A DNA stretch of 64,000 bases, from positions 43,943-107,942 of the IMG/VR virus record IMGVR_UViG_3300042337_000070. One strand, given 5' to 3'. The first letter of the stretch is position 1. Every line of letters begins with the position of its first letter. The position numbers and the translations under genes were made by a program. Source of the DNA: a virus. This document shows positions 3,513 through 63,600 of the stretch, one piece after another. The notes beneath the pieces are model-generated. The model had not been told where the DNA came from and ran no database searches. It worked only from the letters and a program-made list of their open reading frames with translations.

Positions 3513-4165
3513 CACTTCGACTCCAAAGCGATCCAATACTTTAGATTACCTGATGTGTTTTCAAACTTGGCAAATGCACCCGCCTGAACCTCTACGGTAT
3601 AATCATCAGGAAGAAGCTTGAGATTATCAGTCTTAAACGTGGCAGTGAAGTCCTTGCCAGCATAATCACCGATCTTCTGCACACCGTCATTAGACGTATC
3701 ATTAGACTTCTCATGAATCTTAAGAAGCAACTCGCCGTCCTTGCCAATGACAGATAGATTTGGTAGGTTAATCATTGATGCGACCTTGATTAGCTTTGCT
3801 GAGGTTGCATTAGGTAGAGAGAAACTTGTGGTGATATCCTTGAGAACAAGTTCCTTATCTGGAGGGGTGATGATAAGGTTTGGTGAACATGCACGATAAC
3901 TAATGACGAGTTCGCCGTCATTTAGTGTTACGGTCTCGCCATTGAATGAGATTTCTGGGTTCTTTAGAGTCGTCAGAATACCTAGAAACTGATTCAGATC
4001 ATAGATGCCGAACTGAGTTGGAATATCGTCACCCAGAGTTGCTTCGACCAGAATGGACTTTTCAGGAGAAATAGTTCGCTGTATTCTTCCTTTATTGAGG
4101 ACTGCGCCGCTGTTGATAGAGGCAAAATTCTTAAGTACCGATAGAGTTTTTTCACTAAGTTGCAT
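3512..4165 (-). CDS. 45: Sliding clamp, DNA polymerase processivity factor (gp45)
   Basis: 217 residues (T4 gp45 is about 228). MQLSEKTLSVLKNFASIN at the N-terminus, GIYDLNQFLGIL in the middle and GNLKYWIALESK at the end follow the gp45 pattern of two repeated clamp domains. In T4 the gp45 trimer tethers the polymerase and also activates late transcription through gp33/gp55, so it links replication to the late promoters seen at 23-64 kb. RBS AAAAGGAG lies upstream of ATG. It has its own promoter at 4192-4220, overlapping the end of the kinase gene. Confidence 0.93.
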   Translation of the reverse strand: MQLSEKTLSVLKNFASINSGAVLNKGRIQRTISPEKSILVEATLGDDIPTQFGIYDLNQFLGILTTLKNPEISFNGETVTLNDGELVISYRACSPNLIITPPDKELVLKDITTSFSLPNATSAKLIKVASMINLPNLSVIGKDGELLLKIHEKSNDTSNDGVQKIGDYAGKDFTATFKTDNLKLLPDDYTVEVQAGAFAKFENTSGNLKYWIALESK

Positions 4166-4178
4166 CCTATACTCCTTT

Positions 4179-4769
4179 TCAAGATTGTTTCATTATATGC
4201 GATTTATGTTCGACAGTCAAGAATATTTCGACTGACTTCTTTAGGTCCTCAATTGTTCCTTCGTTATGAATGATGAAGTCAACTGGCTCTTTCCTCCATG
4301 CAGTTTCCGACACATGCATCTTAGAAAGTTCTTCCTCAGTGGGTGAAGGGTCTCGACGCACCCAAACTATCTTACCGCCGACACTCCGGATAAACTCGAT
4401 CTCATTCGGGAATCTACAATCAGAGATAACAACATCTTCATATCCCATCATGCGTTTCTCTAATGCAGCAATCCAGATGTTATCTGCGATGCCATGGCGA
4501 CATGCCTCTGTTCCCATACGCTGTAGAATAAGACGAGGGGTTACCTCGTATCCCATCTTATTTGACCACCAAGGATCAACCTTCTCACGAAAGGTCCTTG
4601 AGGCATTCGAGTCACCTTCTAGAAGACCCCGAGGCCACATAAAGATTGTGGCAACGGCATCTTTCAAAGCATCGGCAAATGCAAACTTGTGATACTGATG
4701 TTCCCTTACGAGAACATCAGCCACGGTGCTTTTGCCGGACCCAATGTATCCGACAATCCCAATAATCAT
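4179..4769 (-). CDS. 1: Deoxynucleoside monophosphate kinase (gp1-like)
   Basis: 196 residues. P-loop GYIGSGKS at 7-14, then KFAFADALKDAV (the FADxLK substrate motif of phage dNMP kinases), a conserved ILQRMGTEACR segment and VISDCRFPNEIEFI, which is the DxRFPNE signature of this family. T4 gp1 phosphorylates dTMP, dGMP and hydroxymethyl-dCMP but not dCMP, a step needed when modified bases are incorporated. The start at 4769 overlaps the stop of the glycosyltransferase gene by ATGA, replacing the longer frame. The pairing of a nucleotide kinase with a glycosyltransferase may be meaningful for DNA modification. Confidence 0.88.
   Translation of the reverse strand: MIIGIVGYIGSGKSTVADVLVREHQYHKFAFADALKDAVATIFMWPRGLLEGDSNASRTFREKVDPWWSNKMGYEVTPRLILQRMGTEACRHGIADNIWIAALEKRMMGYEDVVISDCRFPNEIEFIRSVGGKIVWVRRDPSPTEEELSKMHVSETAWRKEPVDFIIHNEGTIEDLKKSVEIFLTVEHKSHIMKQS
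4192..4220 (-). promoter_or_regulatory. Sigma70-like promoter for gp45
   Basis: Minus strand TTGACT, 17 bases, TATAAT. The spacer begins GTCGAAC, so the -35 region contains CTGTCGA, one arm of the palindrome found at the DUF262-type promoter. It lies inside the 3' end of the dNMP kinase gene. Confidence 0.75.
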
Positions 4770-5596
4770 CTTAAGTTTCCTGACAAACTTGCAACTGCGG
4801 GGAGGTCTCCTTGGAACCCGTAGGTTCCAACGTGAGTGGTTTTCATCCAAGGACACAACCAAACCTTAAGTCCAATTGCTCGTGCATTCTGACAGAACAT
4901 ATAATCTTCTGACAGATAACGATGTGACTGTGGGTCGATCACGGTATCAAAGTAAGCATGAATGTATCGTGAACCATCAAAGTTTGCCTGACCAACATGG
5001 TCTGGCTTATAATGAAGGTGTGGAAACTCTTCGGCATACTTATCAAACACTTCACGCTTGACCATCATGAAACCTGTGCCGATTTCCATAACCTCTACAG
5101 GTTCGCTGATCTTGAATGATGTTGTGCCTGGGACTGGGTTGAATACAAAGTCACCTGTTACTCCATCTAGTTCACCAGGATTAAAACCTTCCTTCAACTT
5201 GATACCTTCATTTGTCTTGATGGAGTTACGAGTAACTGCGTTACAGATGTTGCTCCAGTTAATAGACTTCTTTGGATATGGTCCACCAGCAATGTCAAGA
5301 TCAAGAGCTAGGAGAGCAAGGATGTCCTGAGGGTTGTATTGAATGTCTGAGTCAATGAATAGAAGATGTGTGCATCCCGAACGAAGAAACTCATCAACAA
5401 GGTAGTTTCTAGCACGGGTGATTAGAGATTCATTAAAGATAAATGAGAAGCGGCATTCGATACCATACTGAATACAGGTTGCCTGTAGATCGAGGCAAGC
5501 CTTTGCATAAAGGCCGAAGCACTGTCCACCGTAACATGGTGTAGCGACAAAGATTTTCTTTTGTCTCAATTCATCACTTGAAATTTTTATTTCCAT
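4766..5596 (-). CDS. GT-A type glycosyltransferase
   Basis: 276 residues. IFVATPCYGGQCF near residues 15-27, then THLLFIDSDIQYNP with the DSD (DxD-like) metal and nucleotide-sugar motif at 82-84, MEIGTGFMMVKREVF in the middle and YLSEDYMFCQNARAIG, the SED-type acceptor motif typical of phage-encoded GT2-like enzymes. The start at 5596 has GGAG six bases upstream. The acceptor cannot be read from sequence: modified DNA bases, host surface glycans or a virion protein are all possible. It overlaps the dNMP kinase gene and shares its operon. Confidence 0.8.
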   Translation of the reverse strand: MEIKISSDELRQKKIFVATPCYGGQCFGLYAKACLDLQATCIQYGIECRFSFIFNESLITRARNYLVDEFLRSGCTHLLFIDSDIQYNPQDILALLALDLDIAGGPYPKKSINWSNICNAVTRNSIKTNEGIKLKEGFNPGELDGVTGDFVFNPVPGTTSFKISEPVEVMEIGTGFMMVKREVFDKYAEEFPHLHYKPDHVGQANFDGSRYIHAYFDTVIDPQSHRYLSEDYMFCQNARAIGLKVWLCPWMKTTHVGTYGFQGDLPAVASLSGNLR

Positions 5597-5613
5597 ATTG
5601 TTCTCCATAAGCG

Positions 5614-5645
5614 AATAGCGCAGGGACAAAAGTCCCCACGCTATT
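5614..5645 (-). terminator. 14-bp near-perfect hairpin, tetraloop
   Basis: AATAGCGCAGGGAC (5614-5627) pairs with GTCCCCACGCTATT (5632-5645), with wobble pairs, around AAAA. It separates the winged-helix gene from the glycosyltransferase gene. No clear U tract, so it may be a terminator, a processing site or a leader structure of the glycosyltransferase operon. Confidence 0.45.
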
Positions 5646-5666
5646 ATATAGTAAAGTTTTTAGAAA

Positions 5667-5894
5667 TTATCCGTCAGCAAGGCGATAGAATGCGGTGCGC
5701 TTACCCTTTACATTGCGATAATTAGTGTAGATCGTATAACCCCACTCACGAAGGTCGTAAACTCGCTTTGCAACATTATCACGAGGAACACGGGCCATCG
5801 AAGCAATCTTGTCGGCGGTAACGCCGGCGCCAGTGTTATAACGGGCGAGAACAGTTTCAATCTTCTCAATCTGAGACTTGCGAGGTGTAGCCAT
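5667..5894 (-). CDS. Small winged-helix DNA-binding protein
   Basis: 75 residues: MATPRKSQIEKIETVLARYN, then VTADKIASMARVPRDNVAKR (helix-turn-helix) and a YDLREWGYTIYTNYR wing with a basic KGKRTAFYRL end. This is a compact winged-helix fold of the kind used by phage regulators. ATG at 5894 follows GGAG at 9 bases. Its leader carries two competing perfect stems (5920-5987), so autoregulation is a plausible inference. Which promoters it might bind is unknown. Confidence 0.7.
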   Translation of the reverse strand: MATPRKSQIEKIETVLARYNTGAGVTADKIASMARVPRDNVAKRVYDLREWGYTIYTNYRNVKGKRTAFYRLADG

Positions 5895-37381: not shown

Positions 37382-37702
37382 TTATCCTTGATCTTCCTCT
37401 GTTAAAGGTTCTGGAACAATTGCACCTGGTGGAGGAGGCACATCAGGCTTCAAAATATCAGGAAAAATCTTTCTAAAGTCTTCGGCCTTTTTAACCTTAT
37501 CTATATTAGGATCTTTTGTGATATCTCTAAGTGCTTGCTTCTTAGCAGCAATCTCGGCCTGTAATGTTGTGTCACCTGTCTCTACCGCTCTCATGAATTG
37601 TAGGTCTAAGTCTTCAAGCATAGGTGTTCTAGCACTTCTAAGAATATCTTTATAGATATCTTTAGCCTTGTTCATATCTACTTTAATTACACTTTTGGCC
37701 AT
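37382..37702 (-). CDS. Small tail/fibre-associated protein, 106 residues
   Basis: MAKSVIKVDMNKAKDIYKDI, LRSARTPMLEDLDLQFMRAV, ETGDTTLQAEIAAKKQALRD, then a Pro-rich end. The RxARxPxLxxLDxxFMRAxExGD...KKQALRD pattern is common in small proteins of phage tail-fibre regions. May be a fibre assembly or attachment factor. Overlaps the upstream gene by 16 bases. Confidence 0.6.
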   Translation of the reverse strand: MAKSVIKVDMNKAKDIYKDILRSARTPMLEDLDLQFMRAVETGDTTLQAEIAAKKQALRDITKDPNIDKVKKAEDFRKIFPDILKPDVPPPPGAIVPEPLTEEDQG

Positions 37703-37995
37703 GGTTTTTCCCCTTCTGGAATGTCCGGTCTTGGTGGAATTGCACCCTGTTTCTCTGCTACCATTTTATTGATAACATCAGAATATCCCTGCCCATATCC
37801 GTCTGGTTTTGAAAAATCAACAACCCACGCACTTCTAAATGCTTGATCTGCTGGAATTTCAGATGCATCTAGAATTAGATATGGTGTTCCGACAGGGACA
37901 TCTTTCTTTGCGACCTCCTCTGCCGGATATGGATCTGACGGCCATAATAGTGAAATTGATCCGTTTCTATCAAATACGATTACCTTACTAGACAT
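37687..37995 (-). CDS. Small tail/fibre-associated protein, 102 residues
   Basis: MSSKVIVFDRNGSISLLWPS, VPVGTPYLILDASEIPADQA and FRSAWVVDFSKPDGYGQ follow a pattern known from many phages beside tail fibres (xxIVxxxNGxxxxxxP...G.PY.I.D..EIP.D..FR.AW). It sits directly after the aromatic-rich fibre gene and is probably its accessory protein. Function inferred from context. Confidence 0.6.
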   Translation of the reverse strand: MSSKVIVFDRNGSISLLWPSDPYPAEEVAKKDVPVGTPYLILDASEIPADQAFRSAWVVDFSKPDGYGQGYSDVINKMVAEKQGAIPPRPDIPEGEKPWPKV

Positions 37996-38004
37996 TTTTC
38001 ATCC

Positions 38005-39972
38005 TTATCTAAAGATTGCCACATGAATGTGCTTGGCAGGATATGTACCTGGACCGTTCCAGTAGTAGTAGAAATAACCCCACCACCAATACCACCACCA
38101 ATAGTTAGGTCCGCCCCAATGCCATGTGCATGATACTTCACAGAATGTAGTATGTAGCGTTCTGACAGTTAGCGATGTTCCTGATCCCCATCCAATTGTT
38201 CTAACTGGTGACTGAATACGGAAGAACTCTGGTGATGATGCTGTGCCTGTTACTGCATAGTTTGTATCAGGCATTTCAAAATCGAAGTTTAGTTGATAAC
38301 GGCCGTCACCAAGGTCTTCAACTGATGTGATGCCGCCGGCACCTCTGATTTGGGCTCGTTGAATATCACATGTACCGGTGAATGCCCAACCTGACGGGAC
38401 ATACCAACCATACACATAATACCACCACCACCACCAGAAGAACCAATACCAATAACCATAGTATCCGTATGTATTAGGATACTCACACTCAATATATCCT
38501 GATGCTTGATTTACTGTTGTAATCTTATATGTTCTAGGATATCCTAGACGACGATTGCCGATAGCGAGCCAACAGGCAAACTGGAAACTATATCCATCAG
38601 AATGACGACGAATAGTTCCATTGCCTGTACCCGCAATATAAATTGTTGATTGAACTTCTAGGTCATTGTTAGCAGGGTCGGTGACATCAACTCTGAGAAT
38701 GTTAGTGGTACCGTTTGCTGTGAATGTAAGACCTGTTAGTCCTGATGATGATGTTCCATCAAAGTTAACCCAGGCACGACATCCATAAACTGGTGATGGA
38801 TATCCATAACCAGAATCAAACTTAACGACACCGTTGGCATCAACAATAAGAGCATCTGCAATTTGATATGTTCCATCGTCTGCCTGTTTTAGAGTACCTG
38901 ATCCGAATGGAATACCATTAGCAGAATAGAAATATCCACCGTATCCCTTTTCAGAGAAACCTACAACACCGTTACCAGTATTAGCAGTACCAAATACACC
39001 ATTACCTTTTTGTGCTAGTGTAAAGATAGCGTCATTGTTTGCGGTTGCTTCTGCTTTTAGTGAGTGATTGTTTGCTGATCTAGCGTAAACACCATACCAG
39101 TTATTTGATGTTCCATAAACACCGTTTGCAGATAGATTTAGAGTTCCACCAAACATTGTATTAGATGTGAACAATCTACCGTTAAATATTGCTCCGTCTG
39201 TATTTGGAAGAGCATTGTTAGCCACATTAAATGCAGCATTAGCAACTCTAAAGGCACCGTTGCCTGTTGTATATCCAGAGTTTGCTACAATATAACCTGC
39301 ATTGATTGATGTATATGCCGAATTAACAACGGCGTAAGAGGTGTTGGTCTTAAAGGAAGCAGAGTTTAGATATCCATAAATTGCATTAGCTCTACTGAAA
39401 GATGCCTCTGCATTAGTTGCAACACCTAGAGCAAATGTATATGTACCTAGTGCAAGATCGTAGGCATCATTTGCTTTTGTATATGCTCTGTTGAGTTTTG
39501 CGGCTTGTTCTAATGCTGTAGCATTAACATCAGCGATAGTGTTTGCTAGATTAAAAGCTGCATTAGCAACGGTAAACGCTGCATTAGCTTTAGTATGAGC
39601 ATTAGCACTATTAAAGAAACTTCCATTAGCAAAATTGTATGCAGAATTGGCAATGATACCTGCATCATTGGCAGTGTTAGCGGCGCTGTTAGCAATTCTA
39701 ATGGCAGTCTGAGAAATGAGGATAAGATCATTTGCCTTATCAAAGGCTGCGTTTGCCGAATCAAATGCGGCCCCACCTAGTGTTAATAGATCGCCTGCAT
39801 ATGTTTCTAAATCTGTCTGTAGAGTTTCAACGTTAGCACTTAAGTTGGCCGCATGATCATATAGTTCGGTAAAGTTATTATTGGTCTTACGATAAGCCAC
39901 ACGAATTGTATCGCCTGTACCATCGTTTGGATTATTACCAGTGTTAATCGTTTCTTTTGAAAAATCTGCCAT
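38005..39972 (-). CDS. Tail fibre with ANAAF repeats and Trp/Tyr-rich receptor-binding end
   Basis: 655 residues. N-terminus NTGNNPNDGTGDTIRVAYRK is a frequent opening for structural fibres. Residues about 55-260 are heptad-like repeats (ANAAFxxAN variants) that form a fibrous rod. The C-terminal 270 residues form a globular domain with two extreme aromatic stretches, WYWFFWWWWWYYVYGWY (coded near 38400-38470) and WWWYWWWGYFYYYW (near 38050-38110). TGG codon runs make these tracts. Probably a receptor-binding tip. Late motif at 40001-40007. Confidence 0.75.
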   Translation of the reverse strand: MADFSKETINTGNNPNDGTGDTIRVAYRKTNNNFTELYDHAANLSANVETLQTDLETYAGDLLTLGGAAFDSANAAFDKANDLILISQTAIRIANSAANTANDAGIIANSAYNFANGSFFNSANAHTKANAAFTVANAAFNLANTIADVNATALEQAAKLNRAYTKANDAYDLALGTYTFALGVATNAEASFSRANAIYGYLNSASFKTNTSYAVVNSAYTSINAGYIVANSGYTTGNGAFRVANAAFNVANNALPNTDGAIFNGRLFTSNTMFGGTLNLSANGVYGTSNNWYGVYARSANNHSLKAEATANNDAIFTLAQKGNGVFGTANTGNGVVGFSEKGYGGYFYSANGIPFGSGTLKQADDGTYQIADALIVDANGVVKFDSGYGYPSPVYGCRAWVNFDGTSSSGLTGLTFTANGTTNILRVDVTDPANNDLEVQSTIYIAGTGNGTIRRHSDGYSFQFACWLAIGNRRLGYPRTYKITTVNQASGYIECEYPNTYGYYGYWYWFFWWWWWYYVYGWYVPSGWAFTGTCDIQRAQIRGAGGITSVEDLGDGRYQLNFDFEMPDTNYAVTGTASSPEFFRIQSPVRTIGWGSGTSLTVRTLHTTFCEVSCTWHWGGPNYWWWYWWWGYFYYYWNGPGTYPAKHIHVAIFR

Positions 39973-43171: not shown

Positions 43172-43762
43172 TTAGTTCCACCCGTAAAGGGATATTGTTC
43201 CTGATGATAAGTTACCTGCTGATGCGGCAATAACGATACCCTGAACTGTCAGAGTACCGTCGTTTGTAGAATCGTTATAGAATCCTCCGCCTATATTTAT
43301 TCCGTTGTATCCGGATGAATACATGTATCCGTGCATATTCAACTCATAGTTCTTTAGAAGAATGTTACGTCTACAATCATAAATTTTGAAACTTCCCGAA
43401 ATACCGCCACCAGCATAGTTTACAAAATGACCCGGATAGGTCAGAGGAATATAGTTATAGTTTCCACCGTAGTTGATACCACTATTGTTACTCAATAGAG
43501 AATATAAAGAATTGTAATAATAGTTATCCGTCTGAGTTACATTGTTTGTAACTAGAAATGCTTGTAAAGTTACTGATTGAGAAACAGGCACAACATTCCG
43601 AAAGACAACCTCATAATGTATAAAAGAACTGCTTGTGTTTAGACTAACGGAAGCAGAATTGTTTAAAACGGTGTCGGATATAAACTGTCTGTTACCATCT
43701 GCCGTTGTCTGAATAGATGAATCGGGGAATAAGATTCCACTGTCATTTAGTGTTATTGGCAT
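43172..43762 (-). CDS. Fibre-tip paralogue 1 of 3, 196 residues
   Basis: MPITLNDSGILFPDSSIQTT opens the shared SGIxFPDxxxQT attachment segment; SASVSLNTSSSFIHYEVVFR and NVVPVSQSVTLQAFLV give the YxxYxIVxxNxxP core; ends SGTISLYGWN. Beta-rich, Asn/Tyr-rich middle. Same layout as the next two genes, differing most in the central region, as expected of receptor-binding tips. Confidence 0.65.
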   Translation of the reverse strand: MPITLNDSGILFPDSSIQTTADGNRQFISDTVLNNSASVSLNTSSSFIHYEVVFRNVVPVSQSVTLQAFLVTNNVTQTDNYYYNSLYSLLSNNSGINYGGNYNYIPLTYPGHFVNYAGGGISGSFKIYDCRRNILLKNYELNMHGYMYSSGYNGINIGGGFYNDSTNDGTLTVQGIVIAASAGNLSSGTISLYGWN

Positions 43763-44343
43763 TAGTTATATCCATATACTTTGATTGTGCCTGATGAAAT
43801 GTTACCGCTACTCATGTAATACTGAAATCCTTGAACAACTCCTGTTGATCCGATGTAAGTGCTACCAAATGTGTCCCTTACATTGATGGCCGCCGCATAT
43901 TGCTGCCCATTTTGTGTACCTGTCAATCTTTTATAGTTTGAACTATTGGCATTCCAAATGGTAACAACACCATCAATATTACCTTGATTGTAAACATATC
44001 CTGTGTTTGACAATGGTATATAAGATAAGTTACCACCATAATAACGAGATGCGGCACCAGCAATAGTAAAACTATAAGTCTGCCAGTGAGAGTTGTAATA
44101 TGTACCTGTTGCCCAGGCATCAGCAATTCTGAATTGCATTCTAGCAGATACAGAATTGGTAACAGGAATGATTGTCGTCATAACTATCTCATAGTTATTG
44201 TAACTTGAACTGAAACCTGTATATGATAATGCTGCTGAGTTTGATGCTGTCAGGGTTGCTAAAAGAACTCTTGTTCCTCTGGCTTTTGTTTGTGTCGTGT
44301 TATCAGGATATGTTATACCTGTGCTTATTAATGAGGTTGCCAT
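43762..44343 (-). CDS. Fibre-tip paralogue 2 of 3, 193 residues
   Basis: MATSLISTGITYPDNTTQTK, TASNSAALSYTGFSSSYNNY, EIVMTTIIPVTNSVSARMQF and the end SGTIKVYGYN. Shares N- and C-termini with its two neighbours. Its start overlaps its upstream neighbour's end closely (1-base gap) and its stop overlaps the next start. Confidence 0.65.
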   Translation of the reverse strand: MATSLISTGITYPDNTTQTKARGTRVLLATLTASNSAALSYTGFSSSYNNYEIVMTTIIPVTNSVSARMQFRIADAWATGTYYNSHWQTYSFTIAGAASRYYGGNLSYIPLSNTGYVYNQGNIDGVVTIWNANSSNYKRLTGTQNGQQYAAAINVRDTFGSTYIGSTGVVQGFQYYMSSGNISSGTIKVYGYN

Positions 44344-44913
44344 TTAGTTCCATCCGTAGATATCAAGTGAACCAGAAATAATACTGCCACCTGTAGGAAC
44401 AAGTTGAAATCCGTCTAGTGCAGATTGATTAGTGAGCCAAGAATTTCCTAGTATTAGCGTTACGTTATATCCTGAGGTAAAATAAAACCCTGTGACATGA
44501 ACAAAAGAATGCTTGTAAGTATTGGTTGTTCTACAATTAGTAAACTGAATAGTTCCGCTTATACCACTGTTTGTGGCATTGTATGTGTATGGATCAATGA
44601 TGCCATATGAAGTCTGTCCACCAATGGTGGCACCATTGAGAACATTGTGCCAATACAATCCTGCATTAACGTATCCTGAGGATTGATACACGCTTCCGAT
44701 ATAGTAACGAAGACATGTATAGTATCCGCTTGTTACCATGATGTTGTTCAACACCACATCATAGTGATTATATGTGTCGCTAAAATCTGTAAAGTTAAGA
44801 GAAGCAGAATTTGACGCTGTTAAAGACGATATGTATTGTCTCTTGCCTCGGGCGGAACTTTGCCAGCTGTTATCTGGAAAAATTAAACCCGAGTCATTTA
44901 TTGTAGTTGCCAA
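44344..44913 (-). CDS. Fibre-tip paralogue 3 of 3, 189 residues, TTG start
   Basis: MATTINDSGLIFPDNSWQSS, TASNSASLNFTDFSDTYNHY, DVVLNNIMVTSGYYTCLRYY and SGSLDIYGWN at the end. Initiates at TTG (44913) with AGGAG six bases upstream. Highest in the transcript of the three paralogues. Confidence 0.65.
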   Translation of the reverse strand: MATTINDSGLIFPDNSWQSSARGKRQYISSLTASNSASLNFTDFSDTYNHYDVVLNNIMVTSGYYTCLRYYIGSVYQSSGYVNAGLYWHNVLNGATIGGQTSYGIIDPYTYNATNSGISGTIQFTNCRTTNTYKHSFVHVTGFYFTSGYNVTLILGNSWLTNQSALDGFQLVPTGGSIISGSLDIYGWN

Positions 44914-45560: not shown

Positions 45561-48500
45561 TTATGGATGAGAACTCTTGTATTGATCAAACTCATTCTTC
45601 AAACTATCTAGTTTAGCAGAAAGTTCTTGGACTGCTTTTGTTAATGCGGCTGTTAGTTTTGGATAATCAACCGATAGTGTATCGTCGGAATTAATGCCGA
45701 TAACTTCTGGTATAACTTGCTGAACTTCCTGAGCGCCAAAACCAATTTCTCTCTGAGCACCAAATCGCACATGATCTTTCCATTTATACGAAATAGGATT
45801 TAGTTGAAGTATTGCAGCCAAACCATAAGTTATTGGTTCAATATTAGTTTTTAAAGTCAAATCTGAAGCCGTGTTTACTAGCTGTCCGCCGGAATCTGAG
45901 TAAACAAGTCTATTACCTGTACCAGTCAAAGCAGTGCCAACAGTCATTAGTGCGGTACCAGCAAAGTTTCTGAAATAGTGGCCGCCAGCATCATAGAAAT
46001 GTCCGCCGCCGGCGTTAAAGTCTAGCGTTAAATTGCCGGCAATACCTTGTATGGCTGCGGATGTTAATCCAGCAGTGCCGTTAACAACAGCAATTTTTGC
46101 ACCAGGAGCTCCAGCATTGACGCCAACTCTTCCATTTGTTGTCACACGCATAACTTCTGCGTTATTAGCAGAAAGCAATAAAGGAGCATCTCTGGTACTA
46201 TTTACAGTTGTTGATGAAGTTGTCGTCTGTATTCTGAAATATTCTGTATTGTTCACTGCTATAGAATAAATGCCACCCGTTGATCCGTTTGTGGTAACCC
46301 ATCCATATCCAGAAGAAGAGAATGGTGAAGATGTACCAATACCTAGATTATTAACAATATACAATGAACCATTGAGAGTGCTAAGATTTCCAGGTGTTGC
46401 TAGTTGAAGTCTATAGGTGTTAACACCATCTGACCAACCACCAATCTTGAATATGTTATCTGTATCAAGACCCATGTTGATAGCATAGGCGCCTGCTCTA
46501 TGAAATGTCATGACAGCAGGAGCAGTTGTAGAACCTCTTGCAGAATATGAACCAGAATCATTTGAAACAGATACGTTAGCAACGGATGCAGTTCTACCAA
46601 TTATAAGTCCAGTTGCAGTTAGTCCAGCAAATGTTGGTGCTGCTGTAGTAGCAACATCTTGACCAATAGCAATAGTCCATGATCTATTAGCAGTAAGATC
46701 AAGAGAACCAGAAGATGTTACAGTAACACCGGTACCTTGAACAATACCAATTGTTCTTCCTGTAGGCACAGCACCAATAGAGTTATGTGAAATAGTTACA
46801 GCAGCAGAACCATTGTAAGTTGTTCCTGATGCAGAACCTGATCCACCATTGTTGATAGTCAAAGCATTGGTCACTGATGATGCAGAACCAACGATGTTCA
46901 TTGTCTGTCCGCTAATGAAAGATGCTACTTTTGCAGCACTAGCAGAGCGGTGATAGTTATCACCAAACTTGGCTACGATGTTAGAAATCGTTCCCGCATT
47001 AACATCGTCTGTAGTATTGATATAATTTGAGAAAATGTAACCATTAGCATCTCTGGCAACAATAGTAGATGCACCAGCAGCACTAGATGCATTTAGACCG
47101 TCAAGTAAGTCAGCATCTAGGCCTGATCCCGATCCATCACTTAGTTCTGTCCAAATCTTATATTCGGTTACATCAATATAAGTTCCTGTTGGTGCTGTAG
47201 CGCCATTGTTTGTGCCGCTGTGTGTCCAACTAGTACCATTGTGTGAAATCTCATAAAACGATGTACCAGAATTTGTTCCAAAATTGGCATGAACAACATA
47301 ACTTGTGGTGCTGGATTGAACAATTCTAATTGTTGTAGGTGCGTTAGTATTAGGACCAAACGTAAAGGCATAAGCATCGCCATAGAATCCACCAACATTA
47401 CTAATTCCATTTGATGTTTTAAAGTATAGTTCTGTAATCTGATTCTGACTGTTAAGTGCGTTATAACCATTGAGAGCATTAATTTTGATCTTGAGAACGT
47501 CACCGTCTTGGGTACAAGCAAAGGTGCCTAGATTGACCCATCCTGTTGCTCCAGCTGTATTAGGTATTGGATAGCGTTGAATATAAGAAGATGCGGATAA
47601 TCCGTTAAGATACGTTGCGTTATTTGCTGATCCGGTAACACTAATACCCCATGTTCCAGATGCACCCGTACCAGTTAGAGTTGGTGCATAAGAGTTATAA
47701 TTAGCTGTATGAAGTAATATAGAAGATGCGCCAGTGGCGCATGATGCAAGATCAAGATATCCTCCACGAGCGGTGCCGCCACCTTCGAAAATACGAATTA
47801 TAGAACCGATTGTATCAATAGTAACATTACCAGAAAGAGTTGAGTTGTTTGCTTTTTCTAGAGAAAATTCTCCACCTTCGGTAGTATCATTTTGTCTACG
47901 AAAAGATAATCCGGCAGCAACGCTATGTAACACTGACATGGATTGCGGATTGAGATAATAACCGGTATCATTACTATCATAATAATATGGAGAATACATA
48001 TTGCCAGCCGCAGTTAAATTACCACCAAAAACAGCATCATTATTTGTTAGATTGATATATAATGGCCACTGACTATTTACTTGAGTCATCGTCTCAGTGT
48101 CGCCAGTACCTCTCAGAATATAAAAGAAGTTGGAGTTACAATGTAGCGCCGCTGTTGTTCCATCAGTATCACGTAAGAAAATTGATGGCGAGGCGCCTCT
48201 CAACACAAATACGTTATTGTCCCAACGAACATTAGCATCATCAGAATCATAAAAGATAGGAGCTCTAACAGAAGCATTAGAATAAATTATGCCTGCCGCA
48301 GAGATACCTTGTTGTGCAGCAACGAAACCAATTGAAGATGCGTTTATACTATGTGGATTATATGTGAGAGGTGAATCTCCAGCAAACAAAGATCCGTCTG
48401 CTTGAACAGACATTTGTCCTGGTCCAGAAGCAAATGTGAATAGTTGTGATCCTGCACCGCCTGAATATAGCATACCTGTTACTGAGTTAGCACCAGATAT

Positions 48501-49235
48501 ATTACCACCCCACGCACTGGTTCCAAAATACCATAAACCACCTCCAGTATTGTTAACTGTCGATGGTTGAATATTACCCTGCATTGAAATAGTATTCAAT
48601 ACTGATGTGCTAAGTGGATCAATATAGTAAGCAGTATTGTTTGAGTCTTTAAAGATAGGAGCACGGACTTCGTGGCTTACAATCCAAATACCAGCATTAT
48701 CTAATACAGCATAAAAATCTGTCTGATTAGCAGTTGTGCTATTAAAGTATCCATAGAAACCCATAGTAGCGTCGGCCAAACGACCTAATGTAAATGTATT
48801 GTTGGCGTTTGTTGATCTAATGAATGCTTTATAGGTATTATACTGAGCCTGTGTATTGTATTCTTGAATAGGAACATCTTTAGCAGTTTTTTGAGAAATG
48901 AATGAACTACCTGATGTAGTAATGATACCACTACCAATAGACACATTTCCATAAAATGGAACAAGTGTAACTAACTGTGAAGTAACATTGACATCAATAA
49001 GAGGAATACCAGAAACATCATTGACTGAGAAGATTGAACCAGTCAAGTCGTTTGTAATAGAGAACAACTGACCAGCCGAACCCTCAAACGACAATGTTCC
49101 ATTTGCCTCGGGATATGCTCTGAGAGTAATATCGGTATTGACGCTAGTATTAGCGCCTGAGAATACAATCTTAGGATCGTCTGTTGATGATCCTCTATTA
49201 GGAGTGATTACAATGTCTTTATAAGAATTGGCCAT
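45561..49235 (-). CDS. Large tail fibre with C-terminal S74 chaperone domain
   Basis: 1224 residues. Several tail-spike-like modules repeat the pattern RAPIFxDSxNTxYYxxPxSxSVL (around 190, 330 and 420), typical of long fibres. The C-terminus has ASDLTLKTNIEPITYGLAAI and REIGFGAQEVQQVIPEVIGI, an intramolecular chaperone autoprotease of peptidase S74 type, which trims itself after the fibre trimerises, then a coiled-coil end. A perfect late promoter lies at 49254-49261. Confidence 0.85.
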   Translation of the reverse strand: MANSYKDIVITPNRGSSTDDPKIVFSGANTSVNTDITLRAYPEANGTLSFEGSAGQLFSITNDLTGSIFSVNDVSGIPLIDVNVTSQLVTLVPFYGNVSIGSGIITTSGSSFISQKTAKDVPIQEYNTQAQYNTYKAFIRSTNANNTFTLGRLADATMGFYGYFNSTTANQTDFYAVLDNAGIWIVSHEVRAPIFKDSNNTAYYIDPLSTSVLNTISMQGNIQPSTVNNTGGGLWYFGTSAWGGNISGANSVTGMLYSGGAGSQLFTFASGPGQMSVQADGSLFAGDSPLTYNPHSINASSIGFVAAQQGISAAGIIYSNASVRAPIFYDSDDANVRWDNNVFVLRGASPSIFLRDTDGTTAALHCNSNFFYILRGTGDTETMTQVNSQWPLYINLTNNDAVFGGNLTAAGNMYSPYYYDSNDTGYYLNPQSMSVLHSVAAGLSFRRQNDTTEGGEFSLEKANNSTLSGNVTIDTIGSIIRIFEGGGTARGGYLDLASCATGASSILLHTANYNSYAPTLTGTGASGTWGISVTGSANNATYLNGLSASSYIQRYPIPNTAGATGWVNLGTFACTQDGDVLKIKINALNGYNALNSQNQITELYFKTSNGISNVGGFYGDAYAFTFGPNTNAPTTIRIVQSSTTSYVVHANFGTNSGTSFYEISHNGTSWTHSGTNNGATAPTGTYIDVTEYKIWTELSDGSGSGLDADLLDGLNASSAAGASTIVARDANGYIFSNYINTTDDVNAGTISNIVAKFGDNYHRSASAAKVASFISGQTMNIVGSASSVTNALTINNGGSGSASGTTYNGSAAVTISHNSIGAVPTGRTIGIVQGTGVTVTSSGSLDLTANRSWTIAIGQDVATTAAPTFAGLTATGLIIGRTASVANVSVSNDSGSYSARGSTTAPAVMTFHRAGAYAINMGLDTDNIFKIGGWSDGVNTYRLQLATPGNLSTLNGSLYIVNNLGIGTSSPFSSSGYGWVTTNGSTGGIYSIAVNNTEYFRIQTTTSSTTVNSTRDAPLLLSANNAEVMRVTTNGRVGVNAGAPGAKIAVVNGTAGLTSAAIQGIAGNLTLDFNAGGGHFYDAGGHYFRNFAGTALMTVGTALTGTGNRLVYSDSGGQLVNTASDLTLKTNIEPITYGLAAILQLNPISYKWKDHVRFGAQREIGFGAQEVQQVIPEVIGINSDDTLSVDYPKLTAALTKAVQELSAKLDSLKNEFDQYKSSHP

Positions 49236-60324: not shown

Positions 60325-60666
60325 TTACTTTGTGATGGCTGGAGTTACAATAACAATACCCTCAATCAAACGAGTGTGTGTATTAGAATCAGCATCCTTC
60401 ACAAAAATATCATAAAAATAATTTCCTGGTCTAAGATTTGATGTATTGGCGGCATCCAGTGAGATAGAAATCTCACCGTTTGCTGCATCTGTTATTTCAC
60501 ACTTAAAACTTCCTGATACGTTAGCGGAAATCAATGATCTTCTCAACTTACCGGAAACAACATATGCAGATACATTCTGTGCCAGATTAGTATCATCATC
60601 ATTGATATTGATGACAGTGCTAAAGTCTGTTCCTTGATCGATATAAAACTCTACATATTCCGCCAT
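60325..60666 (-). CDS. BppU/Ig-like N-terminal-type structural protein, 113 residues
   Basis: MAEYVEFYIDQGTDFSTVIN, INDDDTNLAQNVSAYVVSGK, LRRSLISANVSGSFKCEITD and RPGNYFYDIFVKDADSNTHT. The QGxDFxxxIxIxDxxG...Y...G.LRRS pattern is an all-beta domain common to baseplate and fibre proteins. Its ATG overlaps the stop of the S74 fibre. Confidence 0.65.
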   Translation of the reverse strand: MAEYVEFYIDQGTDFSTVININDDDTNLAQNVSAYVVSGKLRRSLISANVSGSFKCEITDAANGEISISLDAANTSNLRPGNYFYDIFVKDADSNTHTRLIEGIVIVTPAITK

Positions 60667-63600
60667 TAGTTTTTACCTTTGAGTTCGTCAATCTCAGATT
60701 TAAGTTCTTTGATTGCTTCGATCAATAGAGGAATGATCTTCTCGTATTGAACAGTTAGATAGTTCTCACCAGACTTAGAGTATTCGACTCCATGTTTAAC
60801 ATCAATATCGAATGGTGCCGGTTTGACGGCCATTGGCAGAACTTTCTCAATCTCTTGTGCTAGAACACCAACTTGGGTAGATGTATCAGTGTATCCAAAT
60901 GATGCAGCAAGTTCATTACTGTTATAGGTGACACCTGAGATTTGTTCTATCTTAGCAAGAGCATTGTCGATGGTCTTAATATTTGTCTTAAGACGCTCAT
61001 CGGAATAGTAAGCTGTGATAGCATTCGTGGCACGAATCTCACCGGATGTTCCAGAAGCGTCAGTTCCGATACCAATTGAGTTGAACTGAGAGTTCTGAGT
61101 GGTAGAAGTAAATGTGCTAGCAGAACCGGTGATTGATCCTGATGATGTGACATAGTTAGCACCACCTGTAACTGATCTTACACGACCGTATTCGTCAACA
61201 GTAATAGAAGAGATACCACTAGATACAGCAACATTAGAACTAGATCCATAAGTTGCTAGGGAAACTGTGCCAGTTGTTGTAATTGTTCCACCTGTTAGTC
61301 CTACGCCTGTAGCAACAGAAGTAACACCAGAAGATGTAACATAATTAGCACCACCAGAAATAGCAGTTACACGTCCATAAGCATCAACTGTGACAGATGA
61401 AATGCCAGATGTATATGAACCGCCTGTACCACCTGGTCCAGATGTTGGAAGCGAAATTGTTCCAGTTGTGGTGATGGTGCCACCATTCAATCCGTTGCCG
61501 GCGATGACTTGTGTAACGCCAGAAGATGTAACGTAACCGGCAGATCCGGTTACCGAGGTCACACGACCGTAAGTATCAACTGTAATAGCAGAGATACCTC
61601 CTGTTCTAGCGGTCGTATCAGCGAGGATACCGGAAGCTAGATCAATAACAGGCGTTGTTCCACCAGTTGATGTAACACGACCTCCTGTACCTGTGACAGA
61701 TGTAACTTTTCCTGTTGCAACAGTATTTGCCCATGCATTAGCAGCATTAGCCATAAAGCCAGCGTAGTTGTTTGCTGATGATCCAACAGTGATAGCGTAT
61801 CCGTTTGCTCCCTGTGATACACCGTTCGCTTTTCCAAATGCTGCGGTTGTATTTTGAGTTACAGAGTCAACATTAGCAGTTGAAGCAAATCTTAGATAGT
61901 TTGTTCCATCTGTTGTGAATGTCCAAGCATCTGTTCCTTCATTCCATAGGATGGCAACATTAGCAGAAGATCCACGCTTGACTTCAATACCAGCATTCTC
62001 AGAAGGTGCTACGACAGAAGGAATATCATTATTAAGAGTAATGATGGCGTCGCCGACGAGTAATGTCTGAGTATTAGCATAAGTCATAACGCCTGATGTT
62101 GTAAGGTTACCTTGAATAACTAGATCGCCAGTAATAGTATCGCCGGCTTTCTTTACATAGGTTGCTGCTGCATAGTTGTTAGCATTATTAGCAACAAGAC
62201 CGGCACCATTTGCCATAGATCCAGCGTAATTATTAGCCGCTATGACAGATGTATTGGTATATGCTCTAGCAACTATTAGATTAGCATCTACAACGGTACT
62301 AGTATATCCGTTACTGCTATTGGCCATTACTCCAGCATAGTTGTTAGCTGCACCGGTAGAAGTATTGGTATATGCTCTTGAAACAACAAGATTAGCATCT
62401 ACAACGGTACTAGTATATCCATTAGCTGAGTTAGCCATTGCTCCAGCATAGTTATTGGCAGCGGCAGTAGAGGTATTAGTGTAAGCTCTGGAGGTCACAA
62501 GGTTAGCAGCAACAATTGTGTTGGTGATACCGTTAGCACTATTGGCCATTACACCAGCATAGTTATTAGCTGCCGCAGTAGATGTATCAGTATATGATCT
62601 AGCTGTAGTCAAATTGGCAGCAACGATTGTGCTGGCAATTGCGTTAGCAGCATTAGCCATAAAGCCAGCGTAGTTGTTTGCCGCAGCGGTAGATGTGTTC
62701 GTGTAGCCTCTAGAGGTTACTAGATTGGCCGCTACAATGGTTTCACTATAACTATTACCGCTGTTAGCCATGAATCCAGCATAGTTATTTCCGCTGTTAG
62801 CCATAGCACCAGCGTAGTTATTACCAGATGTTAGAGCATTTGTAACGCTAATAGAACCGATGAACAACGAAGTTGTATTAACTCCACCGTTAACATCAAG
62901 ACTAGTTGTTGGTGTAGATGTATTGATACCGAGGCGAGTATTCTGCTGATCAATAAACAATACGATTGATGTATTACCTACTGTTAGATTGTTTGCTGTA
63001 AATAGAGATCCGCCATACAGTTGAATGTAGTCACTACTTACATCACCTAAAAGAATGTTACCTGTTGCTCTCATATCACCTGCAACATCAAGTCTAAGCG
63101 AACTTGCTGATGTGCCGATACCTACGTTACCATTTACAGTAAGTTCTCCTGCAAAGGTTCCTGTCGCATTAGCAAGAGCATTATTTGCTTTATCAAAAGC
63201 ACCATTTGCAGTATTGAAAGATACTTGATTTGTGACAATAGAGTTTGCTGCGTTTCCGCCTAGCTCTTGTGCTAGTCCGTAAGCATCGTTTGCTCTATTT
63301 CTTGCTGTGTTTGCTTGATCAAATGCGGCTGTTGTATTAGCAATAGTTGACAAAGTTGCTATTGCCCAGTTGTTAACCGAGTTTGCTAAAAAGCCTGCAA
63401 AGTTATTGGCTGCTGTGGTAGATATTCTGATATTAGAATAGGCTGCTGTATTGGATGCAGAGTCGATACTTAGAGCATAAGCATTTGCTGCAATAGATGA
63501 CGCTAGAATATTGGCATAAGCAGCGGTATTAGATGCTGAATCAATGCTCAAAGCATAGGCATTTGCTGCTACTGTAGAAGTTCTAATATTAGCATAAGCA

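Follow-up and report, generated by a model that had tools for sequence, protein, structure and literature searches.

A tail-fibre gene of a T4-like virus, located in a 64-kb stretch of viral DNA (64,000 nucleotides, hereafter the window), encodes two aromatic tracts. Rather than a slippage switch, they seem to be a constant element of an exchangeable host-recognition cassette. The explanation we favour, to which we assign a probability of about one half, is that the tracts form a constant aromatic binding surface on the lectin-like foot of an exchangeable fibre used in host recognition. Lectin-like fibre feet usually diversify by changes in their short distal loops. In this cassette an almost entirely aromatic sequence has become fixed within an otherwise common foot, and its run of five tryptophans is identical across lineages. 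If the tracts bind sugars or lipids, they would constitute an extreme carbohydrate- or membrane-contact surface, and if they pack the trimer, an unusual aromatic core.

Two aromatic tracts in a tail-fibre gene

The fibre gene is a 655-residue open reading frame on the minus strand (38005..39972), with full-length homologues in contigs L002, L004 and L006-L009. It encodes both YWYWFFWWWWWYYVYGWY, which contains the run of five tryptophans, and YWWWYWWWGYFYYYW. The core of tract 1, WFFWWWWWYYVYGW, spans residues 510-523 (38404..38445, minus strand), and tract 2, YWWWYWWWGYFYYYW, spans residues 624-638 (38059..38103, minus strand). The sequence-only reading of this DNA had placed five TGG triplets in a row near 38420-38435, and the sequence and its codons confirm such a run at 38422..38436 on the minus strand. 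The same reading held the tracts to be far outside normal protein composition, which is borne out by the counts: W, Y and F make up 17/20 residues in the richest 20-residue segment of the fibre, far above chance, versus a maximum of 14/20 (mean 8.1) in 2000 shuffles of the fibre protein. A W run of five was absent from all 5000 shuffles of that protein, and the second-ranked open reading frame of the window reaches 8/20. Among 77 distinct sequences with the foot scaffold described below, the five tract-bearing proteins have 15–17 aromatics in 20 and the 72 others at most 6, with none in between. A sequencing artefact or frame error was rejected as the source of the tracts, since homologues in eight other contigs keep the same frame.

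The N-terminus of the fibre (residues 1-44; 39841..39972, minus strand) carries a putative baseplate-attachment motif resembling T4 gp9/gp10. The match to PF07880 (E 4.6e-4, 20.8 bits) lies below the cut-off of 25 bits, and the fibre additionally matches phrog_677 (baseplate wedge tail fibre connector), phrog_11355 and phrog_13173, with phrog_11355 ('tail fiber protein') aligning to residues 538-580 at E 8.6e-5. The NDGTGD.xR motif also opens other fibres encoded at the same locus in relatives. A shaft of irregular short 'AN' repeats follows (residues about 60-262; 39187..39795, minus strand) and aligns with PHROG tail-fibre profiles. The T4-like character of the virus is reflected in the adjoining genes for the gp15 tail sheath stabiliser, the terminase subunits and the neck; its terminase shares about 55% identity with that of cyanophages such as S-SM1, and tblastn gave no significant match to the fibre among named phages. 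The fibre is most likely a homotrimer attached to the baseplate by its N-terminus.

A lectin-like foot with an inserted domain

By fold prediction, the last domain of the fibre is a lectin-like foot of the R-pyocin/AP22 gp53 type, an eight-strand jelly roll. Its sequence follows the motif CRAWVNFDG...IRASGNVSSITD..MPDANY...VAIFR. The first scaffold strand (GCRAWVNFDG, the predicted equivalent of pyocin strand b5) is encoded at 38749..38805 and the remainder of the scaffold (IRGAGG...MPDTNY...VAIFR) at 38005..38352, both on the minus strand. This scaffold is widespread in phage fibres, as scans gave hundreds of candidate stretches; all 46 of the 46 ordinary members match phrog_11355, and both Synechococcus phage S-CBP42 and Puniceispirillum phage HMO-2011 carry it under a tail-fibre annotation.

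In ordinary members IRASGN comes directly after NFDGTG, whereas the window protein has about 133 extra residues between them (38353..38748, minus strand), predicted to form a small beta-barrel-like domain that carries tract 1. In four distant relatives (L062, L070, L040 and L111) the same site holds a shorter barrel-like insert (TVTVTATAHGLIVGN...) that lacks an aromatic tract, so that tract 1 looks like an extension within an inserted domain. In the C-terminal open reading frames of these four and of L022, a nested 'TVTVTATAHGLIVGN...DGTYTV..V.DANTFTVTT' insert interrupts the lectin-like foot domain at the position of the window insertion, which suggests a general insertion hot spot in the foot.

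An AlphaFold2 model of the C-terminal 311 residues of the window protein had a mean pLDDT of 73.8, with confident strands and both tracts poorly modelled (the tract regions, model residues 156-175 and 289-296, fall below pLDDT 50). Its fold matches were the tailspikes of Pam1 (Z 8.8) and phiAB6 (8.4), and discoidin (5.8). Because a Foldseek search of the PDB with the whole protein returned no match at E<=0.001, an ordinary scaffold member was folded and searched instead. Its model (pLDDT 88, eight strands) matched the phiAB6 and Pam1 tailspikes (both Z 8.2), AP22 gp53 (7.2), SLL-2 (6.5), the R1/R2 pyocin fibres (5.0-5.7; R1 pyocin 5.7), discoidin II (5.5) and the Helix lectins (5.3-5.7; Helix aspersa agglutinin 5.7, Helix pomatia agglutinin 5.4). 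Each Z is modest, although the list is coherent, and the authors of the pyocin foot structures report the same set of fold relatives for that foot (PMC6363177, PMC6116203). Sequence searches found no solved relative; endoglucanase 5I77 and the other PDB sequence matches (E 0.06 and above) were set aside as chance matches of composition.

The pyocin foot consists of strands b5-b12, with distal loops L1, L3 and L5, where the sugar sites of related lectins are found, and proximal loops L2 and L4 (PMC6363177). The eight scaffold strands correspond to b5-b12. Tract 2 lies in the loop that joins the last two strands, and the order of the strands, together with the distance from the C-terminus, assigns it to L5; we thus infer from the monomer model and the published loop tables that tract 2 occupies the equivalent of pyocin L5. 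In R2 pyocin this loop helps to form a cavity at the trimer interface (PMC6363177). The insertion with tract 1 falls between b5 and b6, and simple strand alternation in the model, read without coordinates, tentatively suggests that it points to the shaft side rather than to the tip.

Conservation of the tracts

Alignment-based scans recovered the tract fibre in eight IMG/VR contigs and in none of the GTDB genome contigs. With the window, this gives nine tract carriers in four lineages: the window itself, L002/L003 (80% identity), L004/L005 (64-67%) and L006-L009 (51%). Among the matches listed, scans for WWWWYY and YWWW[YF]WW returned genuine coding sequences from the same three lineages only, the remaining matches being wrong-frame or unrelated open reading frames. 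The final scans used WFFWWWW and WYY[VI]YGW, the latter independent of the length of the tryptophan run.

The tract 1 core, WFFWWWWWYY[VI]YGW, is invariant at 13/14 positions across the four lineages, the exception being the V/I position. By comparison, 2/9 positions (22%) are invariant in the N-terminal flank, 8/16 (50%) in the C-terminal flank, 39% in the insert preceding tract 1 and 30% in loop 581-617. The non-tryptophan codons inside the core show several synonymous differences among lineages, and such silent differences within an invariant peptide indicate purifying selection on the tract 1 core. Tract 2 behaves differently in its two halves: YWWW[YF]WW is kept, and the second half is clade-specific (GYFYYYW, GYFLFSW, IPTW). 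The length of tract 2 thus varies between clades via replacement of the second half and not by gain or loss of TGG units alone.

These patterns bear on the proposal of the sequence-only reading that the TGG run changes length by slippage, so that a hypervariable contingency tract would alter the tryptophan run and with it the binding surface. A 15-bp perfect trinucleotide repeat is indeed present. However, tryptophan has a single codon, hence a run of five must be written (TGG)5, and the repeat in the DNA is a consequence of the protein rather than independent evidence for slippage. Five tryptophans were found in 9/9 contigs (the window and eight others) from all four lineages; the search independent of run length recovered W5 alone, and the rest of the core is invariant too. 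The contigs are consensus sequences, in which minority alleles could be hidden; even so, slippage seems highly improbable. Hypervariation by a diversity-generating retroelement was also considered and seems unlikely, as no reverse transcriptase was found in the record and the tract codons are TGG, TAY and TTY, not AAY-rich. The absence of RVT_1 refers to the 108-kb record, which is possibly a fragment.

A fibre-exchange locus

The fibre is located between gp15 and the gene for the terminase small subunit, at what is, from comparison of related contigs, a fibre-exchange locus with the tract fibre as one of its cassettes. Downstream of the fibre lie a gene of 102 codons (37687..37995, minus strand) and one of 106 codons (37382..37702, minus strand; phrog_20196, a weak tail-fibre-assembly match). 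The 102-residue protein has no family match. Across 65 relatives that have the terminase and 2 kb or more of upstream sequence, its gene is present in 6/6 contigs with the tract fibre versus 0/59 without, and many of these 59 encode a different fibre at the same place, often with the NDGTGD.xR N-terminus. Precedents exist for a fibre and its chaperone travelling together (PMC10579305), and this linkage and the precedents make the 102-residue protein a possible fibre chaperone.

In relative L010 the fibre (3576-5734) is 71% identical to the window fibre over the first ~242 residues and then continues into a different C-terminus. That C-terminus resembles, by eye, an intramolecular-chaperone tail. 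Downstream of it is encoded a 238-residue glycine-rich protein, whose runs (GGGGGGGGY, for example) recall polyglycine adhesins. The arrangement looks like an alternative tip at the locus.

Other genes of the window deserve mention. Adjoining the fibre locus, positions 43172-44913 hold three consecutive paralogue-like genes of ~190 codons with a common PDxSxQ-type start, the third without a PHROG match and the first two without a Pfam match. Further large fibre-like genes lie at 45561-49235, whose product has an S74 endosialidase chaperone domain at its C-terminus, and at 60666-63074; in L393 and L008 a homologue of the latter adjoins the tract fibre.

Possible functions of the tracts

The sequence-only reading had assigned the tracts to the receptor-binding end of a fibre. 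This agrees with the PHROG matches, the weak gp9/gp10-like N-terminus, the lectin-like fold of the foot, the predicted distal-loop position of tract 2 and the exchange of tips in relatives. In the explanation we favour, a fibre trimer would be held at the baseplate by its N-terminus, with the lectin-like jelly-roll foot at the other end. The foot would gain two aromatic elements, tract 2 enlarging distal loop L5 and tract 1 extending the inserted barrel domain. In both R-pyocins and H-type lectins, L5 contributes to a sugar-binding pocket at the trimer interface (PMC6363177). Both tracts would be fixed structural parts under purifying selection, and the rigid aromatic surface may contact host-surface glycans (or lipid) by stacking, with neighbouring variable loops setting the specificity. 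The fibre and the small gene or genes downstream would be swapped between phages as a host-recognition cassette. Sugar or lipid binding by the tracts, as the sequence-only reading had suggested, is plausible; the ligand and the surface exposure of tract 1 are what we infer. Speaking against this explanation, one study argues that specificity in R-pyocins may be set mainly by the knob and not by the foot (PMC6116203).

The main rival to a binding surface is an aromatic packing core, in which the tracts of three chains would interlock as a core or collar holding together the trimer with its inserted domains while other loops bind the receptor. Invariance of every aromatic residue is equally expected of a buried core, and the tracts are nearly invariant down to the choice among W, F and Y, while loop 581-617 varies as a specificity loop would. 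In R-pyocins, moreover, the trimer interfaces of head and shaft are lined with aromatic residues, and R2 pyocin brings the L5 loops of adjacent chains together at its trimer interface (PMC6363177). Nevertheless, ordinary scaffold members have no tract at all, which makes the tract dispensable for folding of the foot as such, and clades carry different second halves of tract 2. We regard packing as possible but clearly less probable than the binding surface. Insertion into the membrane is less probable again: the loops would sink into lipid A or the surface of the outer membrane and make binding irreversible, in keeping with the lack of charged residues and the predominance of interfacial residues in both tracts, as well as with the predicted distal site of tract 2. 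However, a distal position is predicted for tract 2 only, and the literature searched held no phage-fibre precedent, so that we think lipid insertion unlikely. A more ambitious proposal would see in both tracts an undescribed all-aromatic foot element, a precisely packed Trp/Tyr/Phe surface that serves to capture a host glycan or to penetrate the outer membrane and is exchanged with a dedicated chaperone, the 102-residue protein; we hold it to be doubtful, less so than membrane insertion by itself but more so than packing.

Comparison with known systems

The literature searched offered no precedent for Trp-rich tips of phage fibres. The C-terminal domains of the phiAB6 (5JS4/5JSD) and cyanophage Pam1 (7EEA) tailspikes are the best fold matches, but they belong to tailspikes and not to shafted fibres. 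To our knowledge, neither has aromatic tracts. The H-type lectins (Helix pomatia agglutinin, discoidin, SLL-2) share the fold, with no significant sequence similarity: H_lectin PF09458 had no match at E<=10 across the record, and hhalign with Helix pomatia agglutinin gave 0.1%. L5 of this agglutinin comprises T82-S90 (TWHNTKVYS) (PMC6363177) and topologically corresponds to the site of tract 2, at whose start the window has CTWHW; the TWH match is missing in two of the four tract lineages and may be due to chance.

The AP22 gp53 fibre (4MTM; Pfam Gp53-like_C) has a similar fold (Z 7.2) and a described hydrophobic distal cavity (PMC6363177), but neither a tract nor an insertion has been described for it. 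PF21882 (Gp53-like_C) was weakly matched by 12/46 scaffold relatives at E<=1 (best 1e-4), and not by the window protein. The R-type pyocin foot (6CL5, 6CL6, 6CXB, 6CT8) is likewise a C-terminal eight-strand lectin-like jelly roll with distal loops L1, L3 and L5, on the fibre of a contractile tail. The distal pocket of the pyocin foot carries negative charge and binds metal, and its loops are short, whereas the window foot has a long, aromatic predicted L5 and a domain of ~133 residues between b5 and b6.
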